From: Gimesia sp.
GTDB taxonomy: Bacteria > Planctomycetota > Planctomycetia > Planctomycetales > Planctomycetaceae
Direction of reading: 5' to 3'
DNA length: 64,000 nt
Assembly (NCBI GenBank): GCA_002706765.1
Contig: PAJV01000024.1
Span: 64,092 to 128,091, forward strand
The notes below the pieces were generated by a model. The model was not told the DNA's origin and searched no databases. It saw only the letters and a list, made by a program, of their open reading frames with translations. The position numbers and the translations under genes were made by a program. Below are positions 3,161 to 62,604 of this stretch, piece by piece. Positions within the stretch are counted from its first letter, which is position 1; every line of letters begins with the position of its first letter.

Positions 3161-3775
3161 CGAGTTAAAAAGCCACCTGTGATTATCACTGTGAGCAGGA
3201 AGAATGTATCGGAATGCTCACTACATCGGCACCCATAGATTGTAATAGCAAACTAATTGCGATTGAATTTAGCTTTTATCAGTAAATGGTACAAGACTCC
3301 CCGGAATTCTTATCCCGTAAGATTCTGAACTTTTGCACTCTGTGCCCAGCATTCATACTGGAACACAAGCCATAGAAGATGCTTATACGAATTGATTTAG
3401 ATCGCATTTCACCGGAAGTTTAAAGACCTCGATGGCCGGAGCAATGAAAAAGGATGCTGTACAGGTTACCCGGAATAAAGTCTGGCTTTGGAGCGGGTTT
3501 CACAGGGAATTTTTTGTGGATGAGGCAGATCGAATCTAATAAGTCGAGGTTTATCATTCGTTTACCGCGTTAAGCTGTTCCGGTTAGGCGGTTTGTCTGG
3601 CGTGTAGGCATTGTGAGTTCGTATGCGAGTCGTCTTCATCATTTCTTAATATTATCTTTAAATTCGAACCGCCGATAAGCCCTCTAAGGATCAATTTGTT
3701 TCTGCAGGGTTGCCGAGACAGGACCTCACAAAACAGCCCGAAATGGATTCCGGGCTACTCACATCAGGGATGAAG
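3161..3775. other. Intergenic region, ZIP transporter/porin
   Basis: About 615 bp without a credible gene lie between two divergent genes. The only structure I can point to near the porin is the hairpin at 3735-3756, listed separately. There is also a pair of distant arms, GGCGGTT at 3587-3593 and AACCGCC at 3667-3673, which could pair in a leader RNA. The region is clearly more AT-rich than the flanking genes. No sigma-factor promoter could be assigned with confidence. Confidence 0.4.
3735..3756. repeat. Hairpin resembling the core of the REP-like element
   Basis: AGCCCG (3735-3740) pairs with CGGGCT (3751-3756), and inner A/T positions pair partly. On the minus strand it reads AGTAGCCCGGAATCC, which resembles the GGGTAGCCCCGGATG core of the 57-bp REP-like copies. 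The flanks do not match, so it is at most a decayed copy. It lies 19 bp before the porin start, where it could affect mRNA structure. Confidence 0.4.
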
Positions 3776-5380
3776 ATGCGCAAATTTATCAAAACGGCAG
3801 GAATTCTCCTGTTGCTGGGAACGTTGTTCCGTCCGTCGGGTATTCTGGCGGAAGACACGAAAATCAGCTCTGAACAGCTGGAGCGGCTGCTGAATCGGCT
3901 GGAGCAGGCAGAGAAACGGATTCAGGAACTGGAAGAATCGAAGCCAGTCACTCCGCCCCCTACTCCTCAGCCTGAGCCACAGCGTGAGACGATTCCTTTA
4001 CTGCCTCCCCGTCTGGAACGTGCAGCCGGCGGGCTGGACGATTCGGATGAAATGCTGATCAATAATTACACGGATGACTCGGGCTCACCCGCCTTCGAGA
4101 CCCGGCTGTCCACTCTGGAAGAAGACTGGAAAAAATTCTCCGAGTCCGAGCAGGAGAAAAAGGCAAAGGATGCCTCCAAAGCGACCACGATGAAAATCAC
4201 AGGTCGAATTCACCTGGATGGCTGGAATTTTTCTGACAGTACTCCCGGGATCGCTGCATTTAATAATCCAGCTGACCCCATGGATCCGGAAAATAACCTG
4301 GAGTTTCGACGGCTGCGTCTGGGATTTGCGGGTGATATTAAGGACAACATGATTTACAAGCTGGAGTTTGACTTTGATGATGCCAATGACCCCACAATTA
4401 AAGATGCTTATCTCGGGTGGAATGATCTGCCGGTCTTCCAGACACTGTTGATTGGTAATCAGAAGCGCCCGCTGGGTATGGACCACCTCAACAGTAGTCG
4501 CTTCAACTGGTTCCTTGAACGTCCACTGGTGATTGAAGCTTTTAACCAGGATGCCCGTCGTCTGGGGATTGCTGCCTACGGCGTTTCAGAAGAGGAGACC
4601 TGGAACTGGCGCTATGGTATTTACGAGCTGGAAAATATTGCCAATGACTCAGGGTATGCAGGCGACGCAGGCCAGTACAGTCTCAACGCACGTCTGGCCG
4701 GGACTCCCTGGTATGATGAAACTTCGGGGGGGCGTGGTTATCTGCATCTGGGTATTGCCGACATGTGGGCGAAGCCGGACGGAGATCCGAGTGCCACCGC
4801 CTCCAATAACAATGAAGCCCGTTTCCGTACCCGCCCCGAAGCACGTTCCGGCAGCGTTCGCTGGCTGGATACGGGAGCGATTGCCGGAGCAGACTGGTTC
4901 AACACTCTGGGTCTGGAAGCGATGCTGACAGTGGGATCATTCTCAGTTGTCAGTGAATACCAGGTAACCCACGTGGGACGGGGTGCAACGGGACCCGACT
5001 TGACCTTTGAAGGTGCTTATGTCGAGGCCGGTTACTTCCTGACGGGCGAATATCAACCCATCGATCGCAGGACGGGAACCATTGAGCGGGTAAAGCCACT
5101 GGAAAACTTCTTCTGGGTCAATACCTGTGATGGAGAGACTGGTGGTGGCTGGGGAGCCTGGCAGGTGATTGCCCGCTATTCTTACCTGGACCTGTCTGAC
5201 GGTGACATTACCGGTGGTGATGAAAGAAACTTTACCGCTGGTATGGTCTGGTGGTGGAATTCGCATGCCCGTATGCAGTTTAACTACATCCATGCCCAGA
5301 TTGATGACAGGGGGCCCATTGATGGTTACACGGACGGTCGATCAGATATCTTTGGTGTTCGCTTCAGTGTTGATTTCTAG
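3776..5380 (+). CDS. Phosphate-selective (OprO/OprP-type) outer-membrane porin
   Basis: The 534-residue protein has a signal peptide (MRKFIKTAGILLLLGTL, with cleavage probably after ILA), then a coiled-coil/Pro-rich segment at about residues 25-90. A beta-rich C-terminal barrel follows, with many alternating aromatic strands, and ends in Phe (RFSVDF), typical of outer-membrane barrels. The strand starting KITGRIHLDGWNF and the later ENNLEFRRLRLGFAGD match the phosphate-selective porin O/P family. It would form an anion-permeable pore. The start at 3776 is chosen because AGGG lies six bases upstream; an ATG at 3770 is the alternative. The selectivity is a family label, not demonstrated here. 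Confidence 0.85.
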   Translation: MRKFIKTAGILLLLGTLFRPSGILAEDTKISSEQLERLLNRLEQAEKRIQELEESKPVTPPPTPQPEPQRETIPLLPPRLERAAGGLDDSDEMLINNYTDDSGSPAFETRLSTLEEDWKKFSESEQEKKAKDASKATTMKITGRIHLDGWNFSDSTPGIAAFNNPADPMDPENNLEFRRLRLGFAGDIKDNMIYKLEFDFDDANDPTIKDAYLGWNDLPVFQTLLIGNQKRPLGMDHLNSSRFNWFLERPLVIEAFNQDARRLGIAAYGVSEEETWNWRYGIYELENIANDSGYAGDAGQYSLNARLAGTPWYDETSGGRGYLHLGIADMWAKPDGDPSATASNNNEARFRTRPEARSGSVRWLDTGAIAGADWFNTLGLEAMLTVGSFSVVSEYQVTHVGRGATGPDLTFEGAYVEAGYFLTGEYQPIDRRTGTIERVKPLENFFWVNTCDGETGGGWGAWQVIARYSYLDLSDGDITGGDERNFTAGMVWWWNSHARMQFNYIHAQIDDRGPIDGYTDGRSDIFGVRFSVDF

Positions 5381-5534
5381 ACCGCATCATATTTCACCAG
5401 AGCATCTGTCCGTCTTTTGTACCCGGCCCCGATGGTCTTGGAGACGTCACAATAAAACTGGAAACAGTCTCAACTCAATACACTCTCAATGGCTGACATT
5501 ATTTTAAAGTCTGGACTCTCAGAAAGTGAGAATT

Positions 5535-42138: not shown

Positions 42139-42223
42139 TGCCCAAGAGAGGACTCGAACCTCCACGGGGATTACCCCCACTAGCCCCTCAAGCTAGCGCG
42201 TCTGCCAATTCCGCCACTTGGGC
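42139..42223 (-). tRNA. tRNA-Leu (anticodon GAG)
   Basis: The 85-base gene folds as a class II tRNA. The acceptor arms are GCCCAAG and CTTGGGC with discriminator A. The anticodon stem CTAGC/GCTAG encloses loop TTGAGGG, giving anticodon GAG. There is a long variable arm (GGGGGTAATCCCC) and a T arm GGAGG-TTCGAGT-CCTC. The CCA end is not encoded. It reads CTC/CTT leucine codons. Confidence 0.95.
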
Positions 42224-53153: not shown

Positions 53154-53507
53154 TCCAGGTTGCTTCCTGCGAAAAAACAATTCGAAATCAAAACCGGCTA
53201 CGCTGGTGTATCATGGCAGATTGTAGTATCTCGAGGCTGGCTTGTCAGTCTGAATCCCGTTTGCAAAATTATGAAATTCCAAGTTGGACTCTAACAGAAA
53301 ACTACCTAGACTGTGTCCAGTTATGCTGCAGCGTCTCCGGGGGCATTCGGTCCGAATAGACCAGATTGAGTGACGCTATGGTTCAATGCGCTGCGCTTTC
53401 AAATCTTGCCTGTCAGTCGCGGGCGTTCTGTCTGATATATGAAAATATCGACCGCACGCAGTTTCTGGAGCAGATCCATTTTCATTTCAATCAGAGGAGT
53501 CCAGACG
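53154..53507. other. Intergenic region, parvulin/mscS
   Basis: This gap of about 350 bp between divergent genes contains copy 1 of the 92-bp repeat (53308-53399). The rest has no coding pattern. A purine-rich AGAGGA near 53493 serves the mscS start. Confidence 0.4.
53308..53399 (+). repeat. 92-bp intergenic repeat, copy 1
   Basis: It starts AGACTGTGTCCAG, has left core AGCGTCTC (53330-53337), a middle GGCATTCGGTCCGAATAGA and right core GTGACGCT, then ends ATGCGCTGCGCTTT. It aligns without gaps to copies at 56998, 59141 and 62399 apart from a single base. Left and right cores pair over six bases here (AGCGTC/GACGCT). Confidence 0.85.
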
Positions 53508-54404
53508 ATGTGGTCGATAATATTTGCCCAGGAGAAGCCTGCGAAAACAGAAGATTCGCTGCATGCCGTCACTGGAATCTGGGATACCGTCAAAGAATAT
53601 CTGGCTACACAGGGAACCCAGTTAGGCATCAACATTGTTCTGTCGCTGCTGATTTTTCTGATAGGTAAGTGGATTACCAACATTCTCAGTCGCTTCTGTA
53701 ACCGGTTGATGAAACAGGCGAAGGTCGATGACACGCTGGCCCGTTTTCTGTCGAACATCATCTATTCCGTACTGATGGTGATCGTAATTCTGGCAGCCAT
53801 TTCCAAGCTGGGAATCAATACAAACTCCCTGGCTGCTGTACTGGCGGCTGCTGGATTTGCGATTGGCATGGCGTTTCAGGGGACGCTGGGGAATTTTGCA
53901 TCGGGGGTGATGCTGATCCTGTTCAAGCCATTTCGTGTGGGAGATTATATCGAAGCAGGTGGAACGGCAGGCATTGTGGAAGAAATTCAGATCTTCTCCA
54001 CATATCTGCGTACCGGGGATAATATCGCGATCGTTGTACCCAATGGCCAGATCACCGGAGGCACGATCAGGAATTTTTCAAAAAAGCCAACCAGGAGGAT
54101 CGATCTGGTAATTGGTTGTGGATACGACGATGACCTGAGAGCTGTCAAATCGTTTCTGGAGGAAGTGGTGCAGGGAGACGAGCGGGTTCTGGCAGATCCT
54201 GCTCCCGTGGTTGCCGTGAGTGAACTGGGTGACAGCAGTGTGAACTTCGTGGTTCGTCCCTGGGTCAATAATGCAGATTACTGGACGACACGCTGGGATC
54301 TGACCGAACGGATCAAACTGGGCTTCGATGAACGCGGATTCAACATTCCCTATCCCACTCGTGATCTGCATGTTTATAACGAGTCCCCTGTCGCGGGTGA
54401 CTGA
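53508..54404 (+). CDS. MscS-family mechanosensitive ion channel
   Basis: The 298-residue inner-membrane channel opens on membrane tension and protects against osmotic downshock. Three membrane helices are visible at about 38-60, 80-100 and 105-135. The pore helix has the Gly/Ala pattern LAAAGFAIGMAFQGTLGNF, followed by FASGVMLILFKPFRVGDYI and the beta domain (AIVVPNGQITGGTIRNFS). The ATG at 53508 with an AGAGGA signal gives a normal N-terminus for small MscS proteins. Copy 1 of the 92-bp repeat lies about 110 bp upstream. Confidence 0.93.
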   Translation: MWSIIFAQEKPAKTEDSLHAVTGIWDTVKEYLATQGTQLGINIVLSLLIFLIGKWITNILSRFCNRLMKQAKVDDTLARFLSNIIYSVLMVIVILAAISKLGINTNSLAAVLAAAGFAIGMAFQGTLGNFASGVMLILFKPFRVGDYIEAGGTAGIVEEIQIFSTYLRTGDNIAIVVPNGQITGGTIRNFSKKPTRRIDLVIGCGYDDDLRAVKSFLEEVVQGDERVLADPAPVVAVSELGDSSVNFVVRPWVNNADYWTTRWDLTERIKLGFDERGFNIPYPTRDLHVYNESPVAGD

Positions 54405-55250
54405 CTGGTTCTTATTTCCTGTCAGTTTGGAAAAGTAAAGTCTCATGACAGGATACTGTTGCGAGGCTTTTTTCTTTGCCAGCAAGCGGAAAACAGTCTG
54501 GTTTGCAGCGCTTGAGCAGAGCGACTGATCCTGCTGGAAGTATTTTTCGAGATCCGATCCCACTCACGCCCCTCTGGTTTCGTACTAATAAGAGGTGTGT
54601 GATTCAGTCGATTTGATCCGATCTCTCCGTTATTAAATTGGATCTCCGTTGAGATTTTTCCGATCAGAATTACTGTTTGAATTGACAGTATCTGGAATAA
54701 TCGGAACATCCTTCCTTTTAATCGATCTAATTGTCCAATTTTAAGGGGGTCACCTCCACGTCTCCACTTCAGATGTGGTTTATACTTAGTTCAGAAGTCA
54801 TCAGAAACAGGAACTTTTCCGCTGATTTAAATCTATAAATAGAGACGATTTCTCAATAATTCACTCTTCAAGTTACCCGGTTGATCAAATCTGGTAGATG
54901 CCAACTCAAGCAGGCCCGAGTTGACTTCTGTTTGATCAATCGGGTCTTTTTACGTCTGGACAGTACGGAAAGTCCAATCCGGTTTCATATCTGAAACCAA
55001 AGCTGAAAAATGCCTGAGATGAAAAAATGAATAGTAATGCTTTGCGGGGCATTTGTAATTATGTGAAGAATCCGTATTATATTAAGTTACAGCGACAGGA
55101 CGTTTCACTTTTCTGCAGCCTTCGCTCGCCTGGCTGCACCGATCTTTTGAGGGCCTGTTCTCGCTTTTAATGATGTTCAAGTGATTTGTTGAATTAATCT
55201 GGCAACCTGTCGTTGTTAACTTCATTTCTTTCGATATACGTAGAGTGACT
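54405..55250. other. Long gene-free region between mscS and the ROK gene
   Basis: The 846-bp region is AT-rich and free of credible genes. It holds a 7-bp inverted pair near mscS (CCTGTCA/TGACAGG around 54420-54450) and a strong isolated hairpin with T-tract (54875-54951), listed separately. A 47-codon ORF at 55027-55170 has no ribosome site or recognisable content. A TTGACA at 54682-54687 has no matching -10 at 16-18 bp. Confidence 0.5.
54875..54951 (+). ncRNA. Candidate structured RNA or orphan terminator
   Basis: An outer 15-bp stem pairs 54875-54889 with 54931-54945 (ACCCGGTTGATCAAA with TTTGATCAATCGGGT, one G-T wobble). An inner stem pairs CAACTC (54902-54907) with GAGTTG (54918-54923). 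A T-run (54947-54951) follows. No gene ends within 470 bp upstream on this strand, and the next gene (ROK) starts 300 bp downstream. It may be the end of an unannotated small RNA or an attenuator for the ROK gene. Confidence 0.5.
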
Positions 55251-56414
55251 ATGCAATCCCCACACCGACCGAGCTTACTACGAAAAATGAACGTTCGTAA
55301 GGTTCTGGAAGTTATCCAGAGCCAGGGAACATTAACACGCGCTGACGTCATGCGATGCTCAGGAATCAGTGCTCCTACCGTATCGAAAGCCGTGAGTGCT
55401 CTGCTGGACGCCGGTCTGCTGGAAGAACGGGAGACGGCTGAGTTTTCAGTAGGCCGCCCGGGCAAGTTATTACAGCTTCCCCGTTTCAGTGCCCAGGTGA
55501 TTGGAGTCGTTCTGGAATGGGATTATTGCTCGGTCGTGGCATCCGGTCTGGACGGACATTTACATGAAGACAAGCTGGACCGCTTTAAGACGCCGCAGTC
55601 TTACTCAGAGCTGATTGAAATTATCTCCGGAAAGATTCTGAACCTGGTTGAGAAAGAAGAGATTCCTGCTCTGGGAGTCGGTATTACCGTGCCGGGGCTG
55701 GTGAACAGTAATGATGGTCGGATTTTTCTGGCGTCGAATCTGCACATTGTTGATGGACAGTCTCCGGCGGTCGACATTGCCAGCCGTACTGATCTGGAAT
55801 GTGTACTTGTGCAGAAATCGACTTCATTGTGCCTGTCAGAGAAAACATATGGAGCAGGTCAGTCGGTAGATGATTTTATTAACCTCGATGTGACTTCAGG
55901 ATTTGGAATGGGTGTGTTTACGGGTGGTCAGCTGCTGGATGGCCAGCATGGTCTGGCAGGTGAAATTGCCCATATCACAGTGGAACCCCAGGGGGGACGT
56001 GTCTGTGGTTGTGGAAATCTGGGATGTCTGGAAACCGTGGCTACTGATCTGGCATTGACGCATTATGTTTCGAAGCGAATAGGTAAGGACCTCGAATTCG
56101 AAGCGATTGCAGAACTCGTCAAGCAGGGCGAGCTTGATATCACTCCCGAATTAGACCGCACAATTGAGTTTCTGGCGATAGGTGTTGCGGCGGCGATCAA
56201 TATCTTCAATCCGGCAAATATCTTTATCACTGCCCGCCTGTTCGATCTGCGTGATGACGTATTCGATAAAATGTGTAAGATTGCAAAAGGTCGCGCTTTG
56301 CAGCCTTCCTCAAGTTCCTGTGAAATTGAACGATCCAAAGGGAATAAGTATCTGGGTGCAGTCGCCGGTATCATCAACCATCTGGCAAATGCATTAGGAC
56401 CCCGTCTGACTTAG
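55251..56414 (+). CDS. ROK-family transcriptional regulator
   Basis: The 387-residue protein has an N-terminal winged helix-turn-helix (about 15-65, LTRADVMRCSGISAPTVSKA) and a C-terminal ROK sugar-kinase-like domain. The domain shows VGITVPGLVNS, the Gly-rich LDVTSGFGMGVFTGGQLLDG, GEIAHITVEPQG and the zinc motif CGCGNLGCLE. This pairing marks NagC/XylR-type regulators that respond to a sugar or sugar phosphate. The ATG at 55251 is used; a GTG lies at 55245. Since murQ and the kinase are nearby, an amino-sugar signal is possible but not shown. It may have no kinase activity. Confidence 0.9.
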   Translation: MQSPHRPSLLRKMNVRKVLEVIQSQGTLTRADVMRCSGISAPTVSKAVSALLDAGLLEERETAEFSVGRPGKLLQLPRFSAQVIGVVLEWDYCSVVASGLDGHLHEDKLDRFKTPQSYSELIEIISGKILNLVEKEEIPALGVGITVPGLVNSNDGRIFLASNLHIVDGQSPAVDIASRTDLECVLVQKSTSLCLSEKTYGAGQSVDDFINLDVTSGFGMGVFTGGQLLDGQHGLAGEIAHITVEPQGGRVCGCGNLGCLETVATDLALTHYVSKRIGKDLEFEAIAELVKQGELDITPELDRTIEFLAIGVAAAINIFNPANIFITARLFDLRDDVFDKMCKIAKGRALQPSSSSCEIERSKGNKYLGAVAGIINHLANALGPRLT

Positions 56415-56462
56415 CCTGCAGCAGACTGTTCCCGCTTCAACGTGGAGGGAGATCACCAGGAG

Positions 56463-56987
56463 ATGTCATCTGCTGCCGACCAGATAACCCGCGAGTACCT
56501 TTCGGAATCGATCCATTTACTGGAAGAGTCTGTACGCAAAATAGAACACTGTCTGAAACAGCTGGATCTCAATCAGGTGTGGTGGCGACCCGAACCGGAG
56601 CTCAACAGTATTGGGAATCTGATCCTGCATATCTGCGGTAATCTGAACCAGTGGGCCATCAATGGAATCCCGGCACGACAGGCTGAGCGGCAGCGTGAGC
56701 AGGAATTCAGTCCGGACACCAGACTCTCACTGGATGAGTTACGGGGAATGCTGAATCAGACGGTCGCACAGGCAGTCGACTCCCTGCATTCGATTTCGCC
56801 TGAAACCTTACTGGAAACGCGTCAGATCCAGGGGTTCACAGTGACGGTTCTGGGAGCGATTTCTCATACGGTTCCCCATTTTGTGGGACACACCCATCAG
56901 ATCATCTATCTGACCCGTCTGCAACGGGGCAAAACGTACCAGTTTGACTGGTCCCCGGATTCGCAGCAGAAACGGGTACCGCTTTAA
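56463..56987 (+). CDS. DinB-like putative metal-dependent protein (DUF1572-type)
   Basis: The 174-residue protein is a four-helix bundle of the DinB/YfiT superfamily. The metal-binding His residues of the family are visible in LILHICGNLNQWAI and HFVGHTHQIIYL. QLDLNQVWWRPEPELNSIGN is the characteristic first motif. Related proteins include thiol transferases and proteins of unknown function, so no reaction is assigned. The ATG at 56463 directly follows CAGGAG; a GTG at 56442 is the alternative. It lies 48 bp after the ROK gene and may share its transcript. Confidence 0.8.
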   Translation: MSSAADQITREYLSESIHLLEESVRKIEHCLKQLDLNQVWWRPEPELNSIGNLILHICGNLNQWAINGIPARQAERQREQEFSPDTRLSLDELRGMLNQTVAQAVDSLHSISPETLLETRQIQGFTVTVLGAISHTVPHFVGHTHQIIYLTRLQRGKTYQFDWSPDSQQKRVPL

Positions 56988-56997
56988 ACAGATGTCG

Positions 56998-57089
56998 AGA
57001 CTGTGTCCAGATTTATTGCAGCGTCTACAGGGCCATTTGGACCGGGTAAAATAGATCGAAAGACGCTACGGTTAAATATGATGCGCTTT
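56998..57089 (+). repeat. 92-bp intergenic repeat, copy 2
   Basis: It starts AGACTGTGTCCAG ten bases after the DinB-like stop. The left core AGCGTCT and right core AGACGCT pair over seven bases, with the middle CCATTTGGACCGGGTAAA. The end is TGATGCGCTTT. It has the same length and orientation as copy 1 and lies 174 bp before the next gene. Confidence 0.85.
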
Positions 57090-57262
57090 AGATCCCTGCA
57101 ATTCATTTTTTCTGTTTCTCTCTGAATTTTGAAGCGGAATCACTCTGTCGAGAATCTCAACTCCAGAAGACCATGTTTGTTTTTTAGAGGCAGGGCCTGC
57201 GTTACAATATTTGAAAAGAGTCTCCGTTCCTTCCCGTTGAGATCCGTAAAGGCGTTTATGAT

Positions 57263-59050
57263 ATGTCCCGTAAAGGAAAAAAGTCTTCCAGCAGGACTGA
57301 GAAACGGGTGCCTGAAAAAACGGCTGGATCCGGACCCGCTGCAGCTGATATTCCTGAAGATCGGAATCGGCAATCTTCCCTCTTTCCGCGTGTGAGTCGT
57401 CTCCCTGTTGAGCTGAGTTTTTTATCGCTCCTGCTGCTGTGGACGTTTCTGGTAGCCTGTTTTCCTTTACGTAATATGGATATCTGGTGGCATTTGCGGA
57501 CAGGACAATTGATTCTGGAACGTGGTACCGTTCCGTATTTCGACTGGTTTACTTTTATCGATTATGATCGTCCCTGGATTGATCTGCACTGGGGATTTCA
57601 GATTCTGGTGACCTGGCTTTATCGCTGGGGTGGCGTGGATTTACTGGTACTGACCAAGTCGTGCTGCCTCGCTCTGACAATAGGTGTGGCCTGGTATGCT
57701 TCTGGCAGGTCCTTGCCCGCCTGCTGGAAAGCGCTATGCTGGGTCTTACCTGTCGTCTGTCTTTCCGGTCGTTCTGTTGTTCGTCCCGAAATGTTATCAC
57801 TGCTGTATCTTGCGGTCTGGATGTATGTCATCAGTCGCCTCCCCACGCATCCCAGGTTGATCTATCTGATCCCCCTCGTCACGTTGCTGTGGGTCAACAG
57901 CCATGCCTTGTTCGTACTGGGATTGGTCGTCAGTGGACTGTTTGTGACTGATTTTGTGATTCGCATTTTGGCACAGGGACGCTTTGGTATCGACCCGCCT
58001 GACGATTCGCTGTCGGTCATTATGCTGGTCAGAGCAGGCGTGTTGACGGTGATTGCCTGTTTTCTGAATCCCTATTTTGAGCAGGGGGTTTTATTTCCGC
58101 TGACCCTGTATGAAAAGTTCTCAGTCGATCAGGCATTTTATTCGGTGAGAGTCGGTGAATTTCAACGGCCGCTGGATTTCATCAGGCAGAATGGTCTGGG
58201 GAACCTGTTTCTGCTCTCGCAGGTTCTACTGGCGATATTAACTTTTTGCAGTTTCATTCCTCTCTTAAAGTCCCGGCGAGTCAACCCGTTTCGGATCTTA
58301 CTTTTTATTGCCTTCACTCATCTGGCATTGAAGGCCTCACGCAATACGGCAATCTTTGCACTGATTTCGGGGATGGTCTTATGTGACAATTTATCGGACT
58401 GGTTGCGAATGACTGTGACTCGACCAACACGGGGTCAGAAAGAAACCGGTACCAGGAGATCACTGCGATTATTCGATGAATCGTTATTGAAAAACGGGAG
58501 CAGCGCTGTCGTATTGCTGTTTCTGCTGCTTAGTGTCATTACCGGTTACTGGCATGCGTGGGGAGGGGAAGGAAAAGTTCTGGGACTGGGAGAACAGGAA
58601 GCATGGTATGCGCATGCAGCATCAAAATTCGCGGGACAGCCAGGCATGCCGGATCGTGCTTTTGTTTCCAATAATGGACAGGCGGCTGTGTATATATTTC
58701 ATAATGGTCCCGAGAGAAAAGTGTTTTTCGATGGCCGACTGGAAGTGAATTCTAAAGAGACATTTCAGTTGTATGAACAGTTTAAGCAACAGATGTCGTT
58801 TAACAGTTCCGGCTGGGCCTATCTGCTGGAAGACAAAGAAGGGCATCTTCCGGCGATTATCCTGGACAGCCGATATTCTCGAAACGAGATCAATGGCCTG
58901 TTAAACAATCCACAATGGCGCCTCGTCTTTGCTGATGAGACCGCCGCCGTGTTTCTCGATCAGAAGACTGCAGACCGGCTGAAATTGACTGTAGTAGATC
59001 CGACACCCCTCATTTCTCCACCAGGGATGAAAATTCTTAAAAGTAAATGA
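57263..59050 (+). CDS. Polytopic membrane protein, GT-C glycosyltransferase-like
   Basis: The 595-residue protein has a charged cytoplasmic N-terminus (1-45) and roughly ten hydrophobic segments between about 50 and 430, then a soluble C-terminal domain (about 430-595). The first loop, NMDIWWHLRTGQLILERGT with YFDWFTFIDYDRPWIDLHWG, has the acidic/aromatic pattern of GT-C-fold glycosyltransferases that use lipid-linked sugars. I cannot assign a donor or acceptor. The C-terminal part (DRAFVSNNGQAAVYIFHNGP) is typical of these large planctomycete membrane proteins. An AAAGG signal precedes the ATG. Confidence 0.65.
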   Translation: MSRKGKKSSSRTEKRVPEKTAGSGPAAADIPEDRNRQSSLFPRVSRLPVELSFLSLLLLWTFLVACFPLRNMDIWWHLRTGQLILERGTVPYFDWFTFIDYDRPWIDLHWGFQILVTWLYRWGGVDLLVLTKSCCLALTIGVAWYASGRSLPACWKALCWVLPVVCLSGRSVVRPEMLSLLYLAVWMYVISRLPTHPRLIYLIPLVTLLWVNSHALFVLGLVVSGLFVTDFVIRILAQGRFGIDPPDDSLSVIMLVRAGVLTVIACFLNPYFEQGVLFPLTLYEKFSVDQAFYSVRVGEFQRPLDFIRQNGLGNLFLLSQVLLAILTFCSFIPLLKSRRVNPFRILLFIAFTHLALKASRNTAIFALISGMVLCDNLSDWLRMTVTRPTRGQKETGTRRSLRLFDESLLKNGSSAVVLLFLLLSVITGYWHAWGGEGKVLGLGEQEAWYAHAASKFAGQPGMPDRAFVSNNGQAAVYIFHNGPERKVFFDGRLEVNSKETFQLYEQFKQQMSFNSSGWAYLLEDKEGHLPAIILDSRYSRNEINGLLNNPQWRLVFADETAAVFLDQKTADRLKLTVVDPTPLISPPGMKILKSK

Positions 59051-59390
59051 ACGACAGCAGGTCTGAACCAGTGGGGTTGACTGAAATTAAACTGTCAAAA
59101 TGAATTGGCGCTTGCAAAAAGGAACTGATCACAGGACATTAGATTATGTCCATTTTTACTGTAGCGTCTCCGGGTCATTTGAACCGAGTGTCATAGATTG
59201 AGAGACGCTATGGTGATAGGTGATACGCTCCAGCTTGTGTCCTGTCTGCAGACAGAAGCTTCCATGAGTCATCAGGTTTGCGGATGATGAGTTTGAATTC
59301 GGGACAGGCTCGGAAGTTCAATCAGTGTTAAACGGCCTGCATGATTCTGCATACAGGTCTCTATTCTATAATTGCTACAGGAGAAACAAC
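59051..59390. other. Intergenic region upstream of the SGNH hydrolase
   Basis: This gap of about 340 bp contains copy 3 of the 92-bp repeat (59141-59231). Apart from the repeat and the CAGGAG ribosome site before 59391 nothing is visible. Confidence 0.4.
59141..59231 (+). repeat. 92-bp intergenic repeat, copy 3
   Basis: It starts AGATTATGTCCA. The left core AGCGTCTC (59163-59170) and right core GAGACGCT (59202-59209) form a perfect 8-bp inverted repeat. The middle reads CATTTGAACCGAGTGTCA and the end is TGATACGCTCC. It is 91 bp, one base shorter than the others, and has the same orientation. Confidence 0.85.
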
Positions 59391-60785
59391 ATGAAACGTT
59401 TAATGGTCAGAACAAAACTGATCTATACGATTACGCTGGGGATGTTTTTGATGTCAACTGGTCTGTTGCAGGCTCAGGAGGCCCAGCAGCAGGCATACAA
59501 AACACCACTCTCAAAGCTGGAATTGAAATCAGGAGATTCCATCGTATTTCTGGGTGACAGCATTACTCACCAGTGCCTGTATACACAATATGTGGAAGAC
59601 TTCTTTTACACACGCTATCCCAAAATGCGATTGAAATTTCATAATGCGGGTGTCGGCGGAGCGAAAGCCTGGGATGCGCTGGTGCGGTTTGATCGGGATG
59701 TGGCAGCTTATAAACCCAAGTACGTTACGGTACTGCTGGGGATGAATGACGGGCAGTATCAGCCATTCAATGAGGCGATCTTTCAGACTTATTACAATGA
59801 CATGAAAGAGTTGATCACAAAAATTGAAGCGATCAAGGCAACACCCATTTTAATGACCCCCACGATGTTCGATGCACGGGCTGCCAGAATGGGCACGCGG
59901 AAGCGTGATCCCAGTGCTGTCGAATTATACAACTCGGTACTCGCCTATTATGGAGCCTGGTTGCGTGAAGTAGCAGCGGAATCTGGCTTTGGATTTGTCG
60001 ACATGTACGGCCCTTTAAATAACATCACGATTGCTGCCCGCCAGAAAGATCCTCACTTTACGCTGATTCGTGATGCTATTCATCCCGATGAGCCAGGACA
60101 GGTTGTGATGGCAGTTGCTTTGCTCTCAGACATGAATGTGCAACGACAGGTTTCCCGGATCACGATCAGTGAGAAAGCTAATGGCGAGCCAGCGGCAGTC
60201 GTACGGGGAGGCAAGCTGACGGATCTGGTTTATGATGCAGACGGAGTTTCGTTCACCTGGCAGGCAGACAGTCTACCCTGGGTCGTGCCCCAAGATGCAC
60301 AGCTGGGAGCTGAACTGACGAAGCTGGGACATCGTATGAGCCAGGAAGCATTGTCGATTCATGGCCTGCCTGCTGGACGCTATGAACTGACGATTGATGA
60401 TGCAGTGGTTGGACAGTATTCGAATACTACTTTAGCACAGCATATTGAGTTACAGGGTAACTCAAAAACTCCTCAATACCAGCAGGCGATGAAAGTGGCG
60501 CTGCTGAATCAGGAACGCAATGATGGTCCTGTGAAAGCTAAACGGAACATCTGGCGGGCATTTCAACAGTTCGCCCGTAACAAACGTAAACTGGATGCAG
60601 AGGAAGGTGAAAAGAACACTCAGAAGCTGGAGGGCCTGGAGAAGCAGTTAGCCGGTCAGGAAAAAACGATCCAGGAGAGTGAAGCGGCAGCACTGGCTTT
60701 GGAAGATAAAATTTACGAAGTGAATCAGCCGGTAGCGCGGAAATATGTCTTGAAAAAAGTAGCCGCTGGTAAGAAGCAGAAATGA
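59391..60785 (+). CDS. Secreted SGNH/GDSL-type esterase
   Basis: The 464-residue exported hydrolase has a signal peptide (about 9-28, cleavage after LQA). All SGNH blocks are present: FLGDSITH (Ser57), the Gly in AGVGGAKAWD, the Asn in LLGMNDGQYQ, and Asp/His in DAIHPDE. It probably deacylates a carbohydrate or lipid. The C-terminal extension (about 330-464) includes a Lys/Glu-rich coiled coil (about 390-440). CAGGAG precedes the ATG at 59391. Related genes are common beside planctomycete sulfatases, though none is adjacent here. Confidence 0.9.
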   Translation: MKRLMVRTKLIYTITLGMFLMSTGLLQAQEAQQQAYKTPLSKLELKSGDSIVFLGDSITHQCLYTQYVEDFFYTRYPKMRLKFHNAGVGGAKAWDALVRFDRDVAAYKPKYVTVLLGMNDGQYQPFNEAIFQTYYNDMKELITKIEAIKATPILMTPTMFDARAARMGTRKRDPSAVELYNSVLAYYGAWLREVAAESGFGFVDMYGPLNNITIAARQKDPHFTLIRDAIHPDEPGQVVMAVALLSDMNVQRQVSRITISEKANGEPAAVVRGGKLTDLVYDADGVSFTWQADSLPWVVPQDAQLGAELTKLGHRMSQEALSIHGLPAGRYELTIDDAVVGQYSNTTLAQHIELQGNSKTPQYQQAMKVALLNQERNDGPVKAKRNIWRAFQQFARNKRKLDAEEGEKNTQKLEGLEKQLAGQEKTIQESEAAALALEDKIYEVNQPVARKYVLKKVAAGKKQK

Positions 60786-60818
60786 AGCGGCAGCGATCTG
60801 GAATAGAGTATTGAATTG

Positions 60819-60859
60819 AAAACAGGCAGCCGGAGAACTCTTCTTGGGCTGCCTGTTTT
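60819..60859. terminator. Bidirectional terminator between convergent genes
   Basis: The 13-bp perfect arms AAAACAGGCAGCC (60819-60831) and GGCTGCCTGTTTT (60847-60859) with a 15-base loop give A/T-run ends in both directions. It lies between the stops of the SGNH hydrolase and the antiporter. Confidence 0.85.
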
Positions 60860-60891
60860 AATTGCTCTAATGATAGATTCCCAGCGTTTGT

Positions 60892-62331
60892 TTAAACCAG
60901 GAACACAAACGTCAGCAAAATCGACAATGGTAACAGCACGATACAGCTGTAAATCATATAACCGAAAAAGCTGGGCATGCGGATGTTATTCTTTTCGGCA
61001 ATGGCTTTGACCATAAAGTTAGGGCCGTTTCCGATGTAAGTCATGGCACCCATGAAGACCGAACCCAGACTGATGGCGATGAGTGCAAGTTCATTGACTC
61101 CTGCAATCTCGGGTCCAGCGGTGGGAGCCGCTTTTGCTGTCTCAAAGAAGACCACATAAGTAGGGGCATTATCCAAGAAGCTGGAGAGACTGCCTGTGGC
61201 CCAGTAAAACTTCCAGGGGGCATCAATTCCCAGTGAGCCACCATACACGTTCAAGATTTGAACCGGCGCCTGCATGCAGATAAAGATCCCCACAAATAAC
61301 GCAGCGACTTCCAGAATGGCATCGTAGTTGAAGGAGTTCTGCTCCCGGATGCTTTTCGGTGTGGTCAGTAATGAGATGCCTGCCAGGCCGAACATGCAGA
61401 CTTCCCTGAAAAAGTGAGGCGCATGCCAGCCGTTTGTGTAAGGGACCGGTTTCGAGGGATCAAGTAAAGCCACACAGAAAATGACCAGCAGCAACCAGAG
61501 AAAGTTAAGCCCGCCTCGGAGTGCGAAGGGCTCGATGTTTTCCGGCGGTGCTTCGACCTTTTCCCGGTTTTCTTTCTTGTAACGAATTGTGTCGTAGATG
61601 AAATAAACCGCCAGCAGGCAGAGATTCATCGCCAGCCACATCGGCCACAGATTGAGTGTCCATGTAAAAGGTACGCCTCTCAAGAACCCCAGGAAAAGGG
61701 GAGGGTCGCCGATCGGCAGCAGACATCCGCCGGTATTACAGACGACAAAAATGAAAAAGATGATCGTATGAGCCACGTAATCCCGTTTTGCATTTGCTTT
61801 CAGCAGGGGGCGAATCAGCAACATGGCAGCGCCGGTCGTTCCAATGAAACTGGAAATCGCAGCCCCAATCGCGAGGATGGCGGTGTTCAGCCTGGGGCGA
61901 CCTACCAGATTCCCATTGAAAGCGATTCCACCGCTGATCACATACAGGCTGAAAAGCAGGGCGATAAAGGGAATGTATTCCACCAGGATCGCATTTTTCA
62001 GAACGACTATTGCAGCCGGGATCCCGGGAGCAGAGAGTTCATGAGTGCCATGGTCGACAACGCCATGCCCGTAGATGAATGTGTAATAGAGTAGAGTGAC
62101 CAGACCGAGGCTGACCGCGACCAGCAGACGGTTTTTGTTATGTTCCCACCATTCTTCCGTTTTATGGATCAGCGGCAGAAATGCGATACACAGCAGGAGC
62201 AAGGCGAACGGAATGACACTGTAGAATGCAGGGGGCTCAGCGTGAGCATGCTGCTCTGTGTGTGGCTGTTCTGTTGTGGATACTAAGTGTGTTGCATCCA
62301 GTTGCGCAGACGTATCAGCGATTAAGTTCAT
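60892..62331 (-). CDS. nhaD: NhaD-type Na+/H+ antiporter
   Basis: This 479-residue inner-membrane protein of the IT/CitM superfamily, NhaD branch, exchanges Na+ (or Li+) for H+. About 12-13 helices are visible after a His/Glu-rich N-terminal tail. Markers are [39 protein letters not shown] and [14 protein letters not shown]. The last two contain the conserved Asn/Asp pairs of the ion path. The gene has GGAGGG before the ATG. Sodium export fits a marine lifestyle, which is inference. Copy 4 of the 92-bp repeat lies 68 bp upstream in the opposite sense. Confidence 0.9.
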
Positions 62332-62398
62332 CTCAATCGCCCTCCATAATTTGGGGAATATTGTATGTGGGTTAAATCCGGAAAATCCATTTTCGTTT

Positions 62399-62490
62399 AG
62401 ACAGTGTCCAGTTTTTCTGTAGTGTCTCTAAAGCCATTGGGGACGAGTATCACAGATTCAGAGACGTCAGGGTGAAATCTGATACCCTCT
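62399..62490 (+). repeat. 92-bp intergenic repeat, copy 4
   Basis: It starts AGACAGTGTCCAG. The left core GTCTCT and right core AGAGAC form a six-pair stem, and the next position is a T-G wobble. The middle reads CCATTGGGGACGAGTATCA and the end is TGATACCCTCT. It is the most divergent copy but keeps length and orientation. It lies between the NhaD start and the GGDEF gene. Confidence 0.8.
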
Positions 62491-62604
62491 ATCACTGTGA
62501 ACACAAGCAGCCTGCTTGTTTAGGGGCGGAATTTAAAATCTGTGGATTATGGCATGATCAGGGATTGTGTACAATGTCCAAATCATCTGGAATTTCAATT
62601 CCAT

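Follow-up and report, generated by a model that had tools for sequence, protein, structure and literature searches.

Repeat copies in the window

In a 64,000-nucleotide stretch of Gimesia sp. contig PAJV01000024.1 (hereafter, the window), short repeats lie in the gaps before mscS, a GT-C-like gene and an SGNH gene, and in the gap next to an nhaD-like gene; we describe them here as a putative miniature inverted-repeat transposable element (MITE). A preliminary description of this DNA listed four such repeats in one orientation, and these four proved to be real and correctly placed between the named genes. With a profile built from 33 copies (the four reported ones among them), they were recovered from 344 kb of searched sequence with E-values from 1.7e-16 to 6.1e-21 (Table 1). 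Their alignment, said to be essentially free of gaps, extends over about 94 bp, interrupted by a single gap of 1 bp in copy 3. The claim that the first 53 kb hold no copy is wrong, as a fifth one, overlooked at that time, lies there on the minus strand. Descent of the four from one larger duplicated segment is ruled out, the flanks being unrelated between copies.

Table 1. Copies of the putative MITE in the window, with scores from the 33-copy profile (ORF, open reading frame)
Copy	Position	Strand	Terminal TAs	Location	Score (bits)
1	53307..53400	+	TA to TA, right TA decayed to TC	gap upstream of mscS	84.5
2	56997..57090	+	left TA decayed to GA	between DinB-like ORF and GT-C-like gene	103.8
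3	59140..59232	+	right TA decayed to CA	upstream of SGNH gene	95.7
4	62398..62491	+	TA to TA	67 bp upstream of minus-strand nhaD-like gene	86.3
5	5378..5471	-		TA within stop codon of ORF 3710-5380	72.4

Boundaries and ends of the element

In the oriented alignment, the element has the limits TA-GACTGTGTCCAGTTTTACTGTAGCGTCTCC ... GAGACGCTATGGTTAAATGTGATGCGCTC-TA and measures 94 bp including both TAs and 90 bp excluding them; the copies in the window, to which limits of 91–92 bp had been assigned, thus run from TA to TA over 93–94 bp. The left end is GACTGTGTCCAGTTTTACTGTAGCG and the right end, read inwards, is GAGCGCATCACATTTAACCATAGCG. These two ends form imperfect inverted repeats, identical at 17 of 27 positions in the consensus and nearly perfect over the inner ~12 bp. 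The inverted core reported initially is therefore present, its AGCGTCTC/GAGACGCT stem being the inner, best-matching portion of the inverted ends, and the inverted repeat goes beyond the 8-bp arms to span the whole terminal ~27–31 bp. The first base of the element is G at both ends, and the majority sequence is identical among the copies examined from the window's own genome (G000) and from its two closest congeners (G002 and G009). The element contains neither a transposase gene nor any other, the translation of the consensus showing stops in five of six frames or a frame of at most ~30 codons.

A promoter was considered for the TATAAT hexamer of the consensus and rejected, no good -35 box being seen on inspection at the usual spacing. 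At one locus of G002 (L255, G002:C1:5078037-5078321), three copies stand head to tail with a 92-bp period, each sharing a TA with the next.

Insertion at TA: filled and empty sites

The 280 kb surrounding the window were set against their counterparts in G002 and G009, whose SGNH proteins are, respectively, 90% and 89% identical to that of the window. A sequence profile identifies 14, 6 and 11 copies in these regions of G000, G002 and G009, 31 in total, some of them orthologous to each other. For 19 of the 31, the orthologous site is more than 60 bp shorter in at least one other genome, and of the 30 filled/empty comparisons, 18 give a difference of 90–93 bp and the remainder one of 68–198 bp. 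At the clearest junction, CAGAC-TA-[element]-TA-GAACAA in G009 faces CAGAC-TA-GAACAA in G002. The target-site duplication, visible at orthologous empty sites, is thus TA.

Copies 1, 3, 4 and 5 of the window can be set against an empty site of this kind. Copy 1 has an empty orthologous site in both congeners, with size differences of 92 and 93 bp. Copies 2, 3 and 4 are absent from G002 and G009; the junctions are too diverged for reading at the second, the left junction of the third (ACAT-TA-G, then GCTTGT) is legible by eye in both genomes, and the fourth shows size differences of 93 and 92 bp, the TA being no longer visible at the empty site. Copy 5 faces an empty site in G009, the sole relative comparable there.

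Among 159 located copies (153 distinct), the TA is retained at 123 left and 120 right ends, the second TA often being decayed in old copies. The base before the TA, combined with the element's first base, yields CTAG or TTAG at 109 left ends and 96 right ends. At G000:C24:264651-264746 and the orthologous G002 and G009 sites, the same stop codon is filled in all three genomes and the orientation in G000 is opposite, reflecting either an inversion or an independent insertion.

Copy number, distribution, and age

The window's genome (7.9 Mb, 78 contigs) yields at least 150 matches in the profile search, on both strands, the weakest listed having E 5.4e-8. Were the density of the 280-kb region on the window's contig typical, the genome would by extrapolation hold about 400 copies, weak matches included. 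The common orientation, true of the four copies reported first, is no genome-wide rule, since the plus strand carries 41 of the 86 listed G002 copies. Within the three 280-kb regions, 25 of the 31 copies share one orientation, unlike the listed chromosome copies of G002. A replication-strand bias was tried and rejected: among the copies listed or best-ranked, and with chromosome halves set without the true origin, orientation does not agree with the halves in G002 (37/86), G009 (15/27), G001 (13/27), or G008 (10/19).

The element occurs in each of the 17 genomes from the genus (E ≤ 0.001), with at least 150 copies in three of them, 18–68 in ten, and one copy in four. In the family sample, 13 of 150 genomes and three of 58 genera match at the same threshold. 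The order sample comprises 170 genomes, the same number as in the family search, and has no visibly wider reach; there, 18 genomes and two of 58 genera match at E ≤ 1e-4. The similarity thus exceeds chance, with at least 150 matches in the window's genome while 152 of the 170 order-sample genomes have none. Searches with exact patterns gave, for 24 bases, eight stretches, namely, one of an uncultured Gimesia metagenome-assembled genome (MAG), six of one Planctomycetaceae MAG, and one of another planctomycete MAG; a 47-base pattern had no match in assembled genome contigs, a set from which the near relatives of the window were possibly left out.

Outside the host genus, many copies are found in a single genome, G051 (83 matches at E ≤ 1), and a further genus provides a single weak match (E 3.5e-4). 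The G051 consensus has 65 of 94 positions in common with the window's family. Mean pairwise identity is 0.924 in G051 (31 copies), 0.919 in G002 (21 copies), and 0.774 in G000 (59 copies), these values being flattering because the copies were chosen mostly as best-scoring. The G051 copies form a separate young subfamily, the product of a distinct burst.

Two observations concern shared flanks. Eight of 30 G051 copies (L205, L213, L215, L224, L225, L227, L228, and L233) have the same left flank, TTTGCAGGC, before the element, and seemingly were inserted into, or copied with, another repeat. L120 (in G006) and L121 (in G014), each the sole copy in its genome, have identical flanks and lie ~12 kb from the SGNH gene; they therefore represent one old common insertion.

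Candidate IS630-family partner

Duplication of TA in a CTAG-like site points to IS630-family insertion sequences (IS). Complete 1025-bp elements of this family, L146 and L147, occur in two congeners, G008 and G005, and both ends of each are of the TAGAGCGCATCACA type. They extend from TA to TA, their own ends are identical at 22 of 26 positions, and two overlapping frames meet across an A-run. The second frame matches NF033545 (NCBIfam IS630) with 144.1 bits (cut-off 100), PF13358 (DDE_3) is matched with 116.1 bits (cut-off 28.6), and a helix-turn-helix domain is also matched in Pfam. The right end of the putative MITE agrees with the ends of these elements at 24 and 25 of 27 positions, the best control value being 20 of 27 in 100 shuffles of the 3.35-kb locus, searched with four queries on two strands.

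The window's genome has five DDE_3 matches, and three IS remnants in it have MITE-like ends: L034 and L035 start with TAGAGCGCGTCACATTTTAGTCTAGCG, near the right end of the MITE, and are cut short by other sequence, and L033 is a fragment with a similar end. At the remaining DDE_3 loci of the genus (L031, L032, L148–L154, and L157–L166) no matching ends were found, the best, at 15–18 of 27, being at the shuffle level. The copy-rich G051 also holds the closest IS630 relative found outside the host genus (71% identity).

Directly seen are the repeat family, the two ends, the insertion at TA and, in two congeners, complete IS630-family elements that one MITE end closely matches. From this we conclude that the repeats, most of them decayed, are very probably a MITE: a DNA transposon of 90 bp, non-autonomous and mobilised in trans by a DDE transposase of the IS630 family (Tc1/mariner type). 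The transposase, supplied by an element such as L146/L147, would cut the MITE out at its ends, presumably by cut-and-paste chemistry; insertion is at TA, mostly in the YTAR context (Y, pyrimidine; R, purine), and duplicates the TA. Copies persist between genes or in stop codons, where insertion at the TA of TAA or TAG leaves a TAG stop and an unchanged protein. A MITE-like non-autonomous element had been one of the initial suggestions, and the copy number in both orientations, the TA duplication, and the IS630-family element with one matching end all support it.

Several observations weigh against this explanation. Among the 31 copies of the compared regions, six are without an empty site and six without matching flanks. 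The window's genome has only remnants with MITE-like ends, its longest DDE_3 copy, L031, and L032 being without them. The left end of the MITE matches the L146/L147 ends at just 17–18 of 27 positions, a value reached by shuffles. Finally, G002 and G009 have at least 150 copies each, but the DDE_3 search (E ≤ 1e-5) gave one match in the former, its ends not matching, and none in the latter.

The last two points also speak for an alternative, in which the same kind of MITE is moved by a transposase other than that of an L146-type IS630, e.g., that of an extinct IS with one GACTGTGTCC-type end. An IS of another genus (L179 in G041) indeed has one GAGCGC-type end and one end of the MITE-left type (21/27), as a single case. 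This alternative is opposed by the near identity of the right end to the L146/L147 ends, by the remnants of L146-type IS in the window's own genome, and by the TA target common to the MITE and the L146-type IS, and we regard it as unlikely, yet the most serious competitor. Thus, an autonomous element with the same ends, as was to be sought according to the preliminary description, is found in part, as a complete element in congeners with one end close and the other at the shuffle level; on sequence grounds, the link to an IS630 element seems firm for one MITE end and for the target, and not for the other end.

Insertions in stop codons

Greedy ORFs cover 86–88% of bases in the three 280-kb regions, and none of the 31 copies lies inside an ORF that continues for more than 60 nt on both sides, although three are nonetheless 95–100% covered by an ORF call. 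An ORF of at least 100 codons ends in the terminal TA of 43 of the 153 distinct copies, compared to 50 of 373 non-coding YTAR sites (13.4%) located at such ORF ends in the 280-kb region of the window's genome (binomial p 1.3e-6); in G000 alone, 18 of 61 copies are in stop codons (p 8e-4). The stop-codon share is about twice that expected from the available non-coding YTAR sites, with copies shared by descent between genomes kept in the count, one region of one genome serving as the control, and genes represented by ORF calls. With duplicates still included, 46 ORF ends fall at offset 0 and 14 elsewhere in the element, unlike mere cutting of genes, which would end ORFs in all three frames.

Seven stop-codon copies were compared with relatives. 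In three cases, a relative without the element has its stop, TAA or TAG, at exactly this codon; in one, the stops of the relatives lie no more than one or two codons from the copy; and in three, the sites are filled or ambiguous there. For example, ORF 3710-5380 has a TAG stop at copy 5, and its G009 orthologue, without the element, has TAA at the same codon. Both ends of the element start with G, and an insertion at the TA of a TAA or TAG stop therefore yields TAG in either direction.

The excess could be explained by selection against other sites. Only tentatively, as a possibility we ourselves rather doubt, we propose that the element or its transposase prefers YTAR sites in stop codons, over and above mere survival of copies there, the G-initial ends rebuilding TAG in either orientation. 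If so, the element would colonise 3' ends of genes at little cost, turning TAA stops into TAG, and would place a G·U-rich hairpin of the plus strand at many mRNA 3' ends, where it might act on mRNAs.

Secondary structure and the RNA alternative

The preliminary description also suggested a dispersed small-RNA gene or a regulatory cassette, and held that the stem is kept through pairing. A dispersed structured RNA under selection (a small-RNA gene, terminator, or mRNA-stability hairpin), whose transcribed plus strand folds as a near-continuous hairpin, would agree with the folding of the consensus, the plus strand reaching -33.4 kcal/mol (z -4.0, 0/200 shuffles) and the minus strand -21.1 kcal/mol (z -1.9, 13/200), and with the absence of copies from ORFs running on at both sides. 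The plus strand folds better because the consensus ends differ by six transition mismatches, all of which, assigned by eye, are G·U pairs on this strand. Yet the same G·U pattern would arise if a former palindrome had undergone C-to-T change on one of its strands, and the bias is weaker in G051, where, again by eye, four transition mismatches are of the G·U type and two of the A·C type.

The 33 copies lend no support to a stem kept through pairing: one of 19 pairs is changed on both sides vs. 1.0 in shuffles, and paired cells make up 94.3% vs. 93.8%, 26 of 500 shuffles being at least as high. The window copies reported first fold with z of -0.9, -0.3, -2.5, and -0.5, three of the four at the shuffled level and one better. 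At the Rfam gathering threshold, the only match in the window is a tRNA at 42139-42223, with none at the copies, and 19 of the 31 positions are empty in a close relative. With neither Rfam matches at the copies nor covariation, and with most positions not common to the closest relatives, the small-RNA gene and the regulatory cassette find no support, and a selected RNA is, in our opinion, very improbable; we ascribe the structure to the mobile unit rather than to individual copies. A REP/RAYT-type palindrome (repetitive extragenic palindrome) spread by a tyrosine (HUH) transposase would have the observed high copy number, intergenic position, and imperfect palindrome, and, though no search was aimed at RAYT genes, is hardly credible given the TA duplication at empty sites, HUH elements not being known to make a target duplication, and the end in common with a DDE element.

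Comparison with known systems

We found no description of this repeat, or of any planctomycete IS630 MITE, in the open-licence literature. The closest described case for the planctomycete MITE is RUP of Streptococcus pneumoniae with its IS630-Spn1. RUP is described as a non-coding, mostly intergenic repeat of 107 bp with 108–110 copies and a TA target, its ends resemble those of the resident IS630-Spn1, and its movement in trans is presumed (PMC2229807, PMC3049150). The likeness comprises a short non-coding sequence, many mostly intergenic copies, insertion at TA, and ends like those of an IS630-family element; it is one of mechanism, and the host belongs to another phylum. RUP is described as having a 9-bp terminal inverted repeat and favouring IS elements, whereas the planctomycete MITE has ~27-bp ends, only one of them close to those of the IS, and is over-represented in stop codons.

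Similarly, ISY100 has been demonstrated in vitro to insert almost exclusively at TA (PMC2170065). The MITE shares with IS630 and ISY100 the TA duplication, with CTAG or TTAG around most of its insertion sites, and differs in the lack of a transposase gene; an IS of this kind could mobilise it. IS630 itself reportedly prefers TA in CTAG, a finding ascribed to Tenzen and Ohtsubo in 1991. Correia/NEMIS and ERIC are likewise short non-coding repeats that terminate in TA, have inverted ends, and duplicate the target (PMC2229807). The MITE has these same features; hosts and sequences are different, and the likeness is one of description only.

Taking all this into account, the kind of system is already known, with a RUP-like mechanism, and the habit of occupying stop codons is its less ordinary part. 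For a planctomycete genus, there is now a defined family of MITEs whose filled and empty sites can be mapped in 17 genomes, together with an IS630 element as its candidate partner. Moreover, since the element itself rebuilds the stop codons in which 43 of 153 copies lie, the persistence of small transposons can be tested here in a natural setting.

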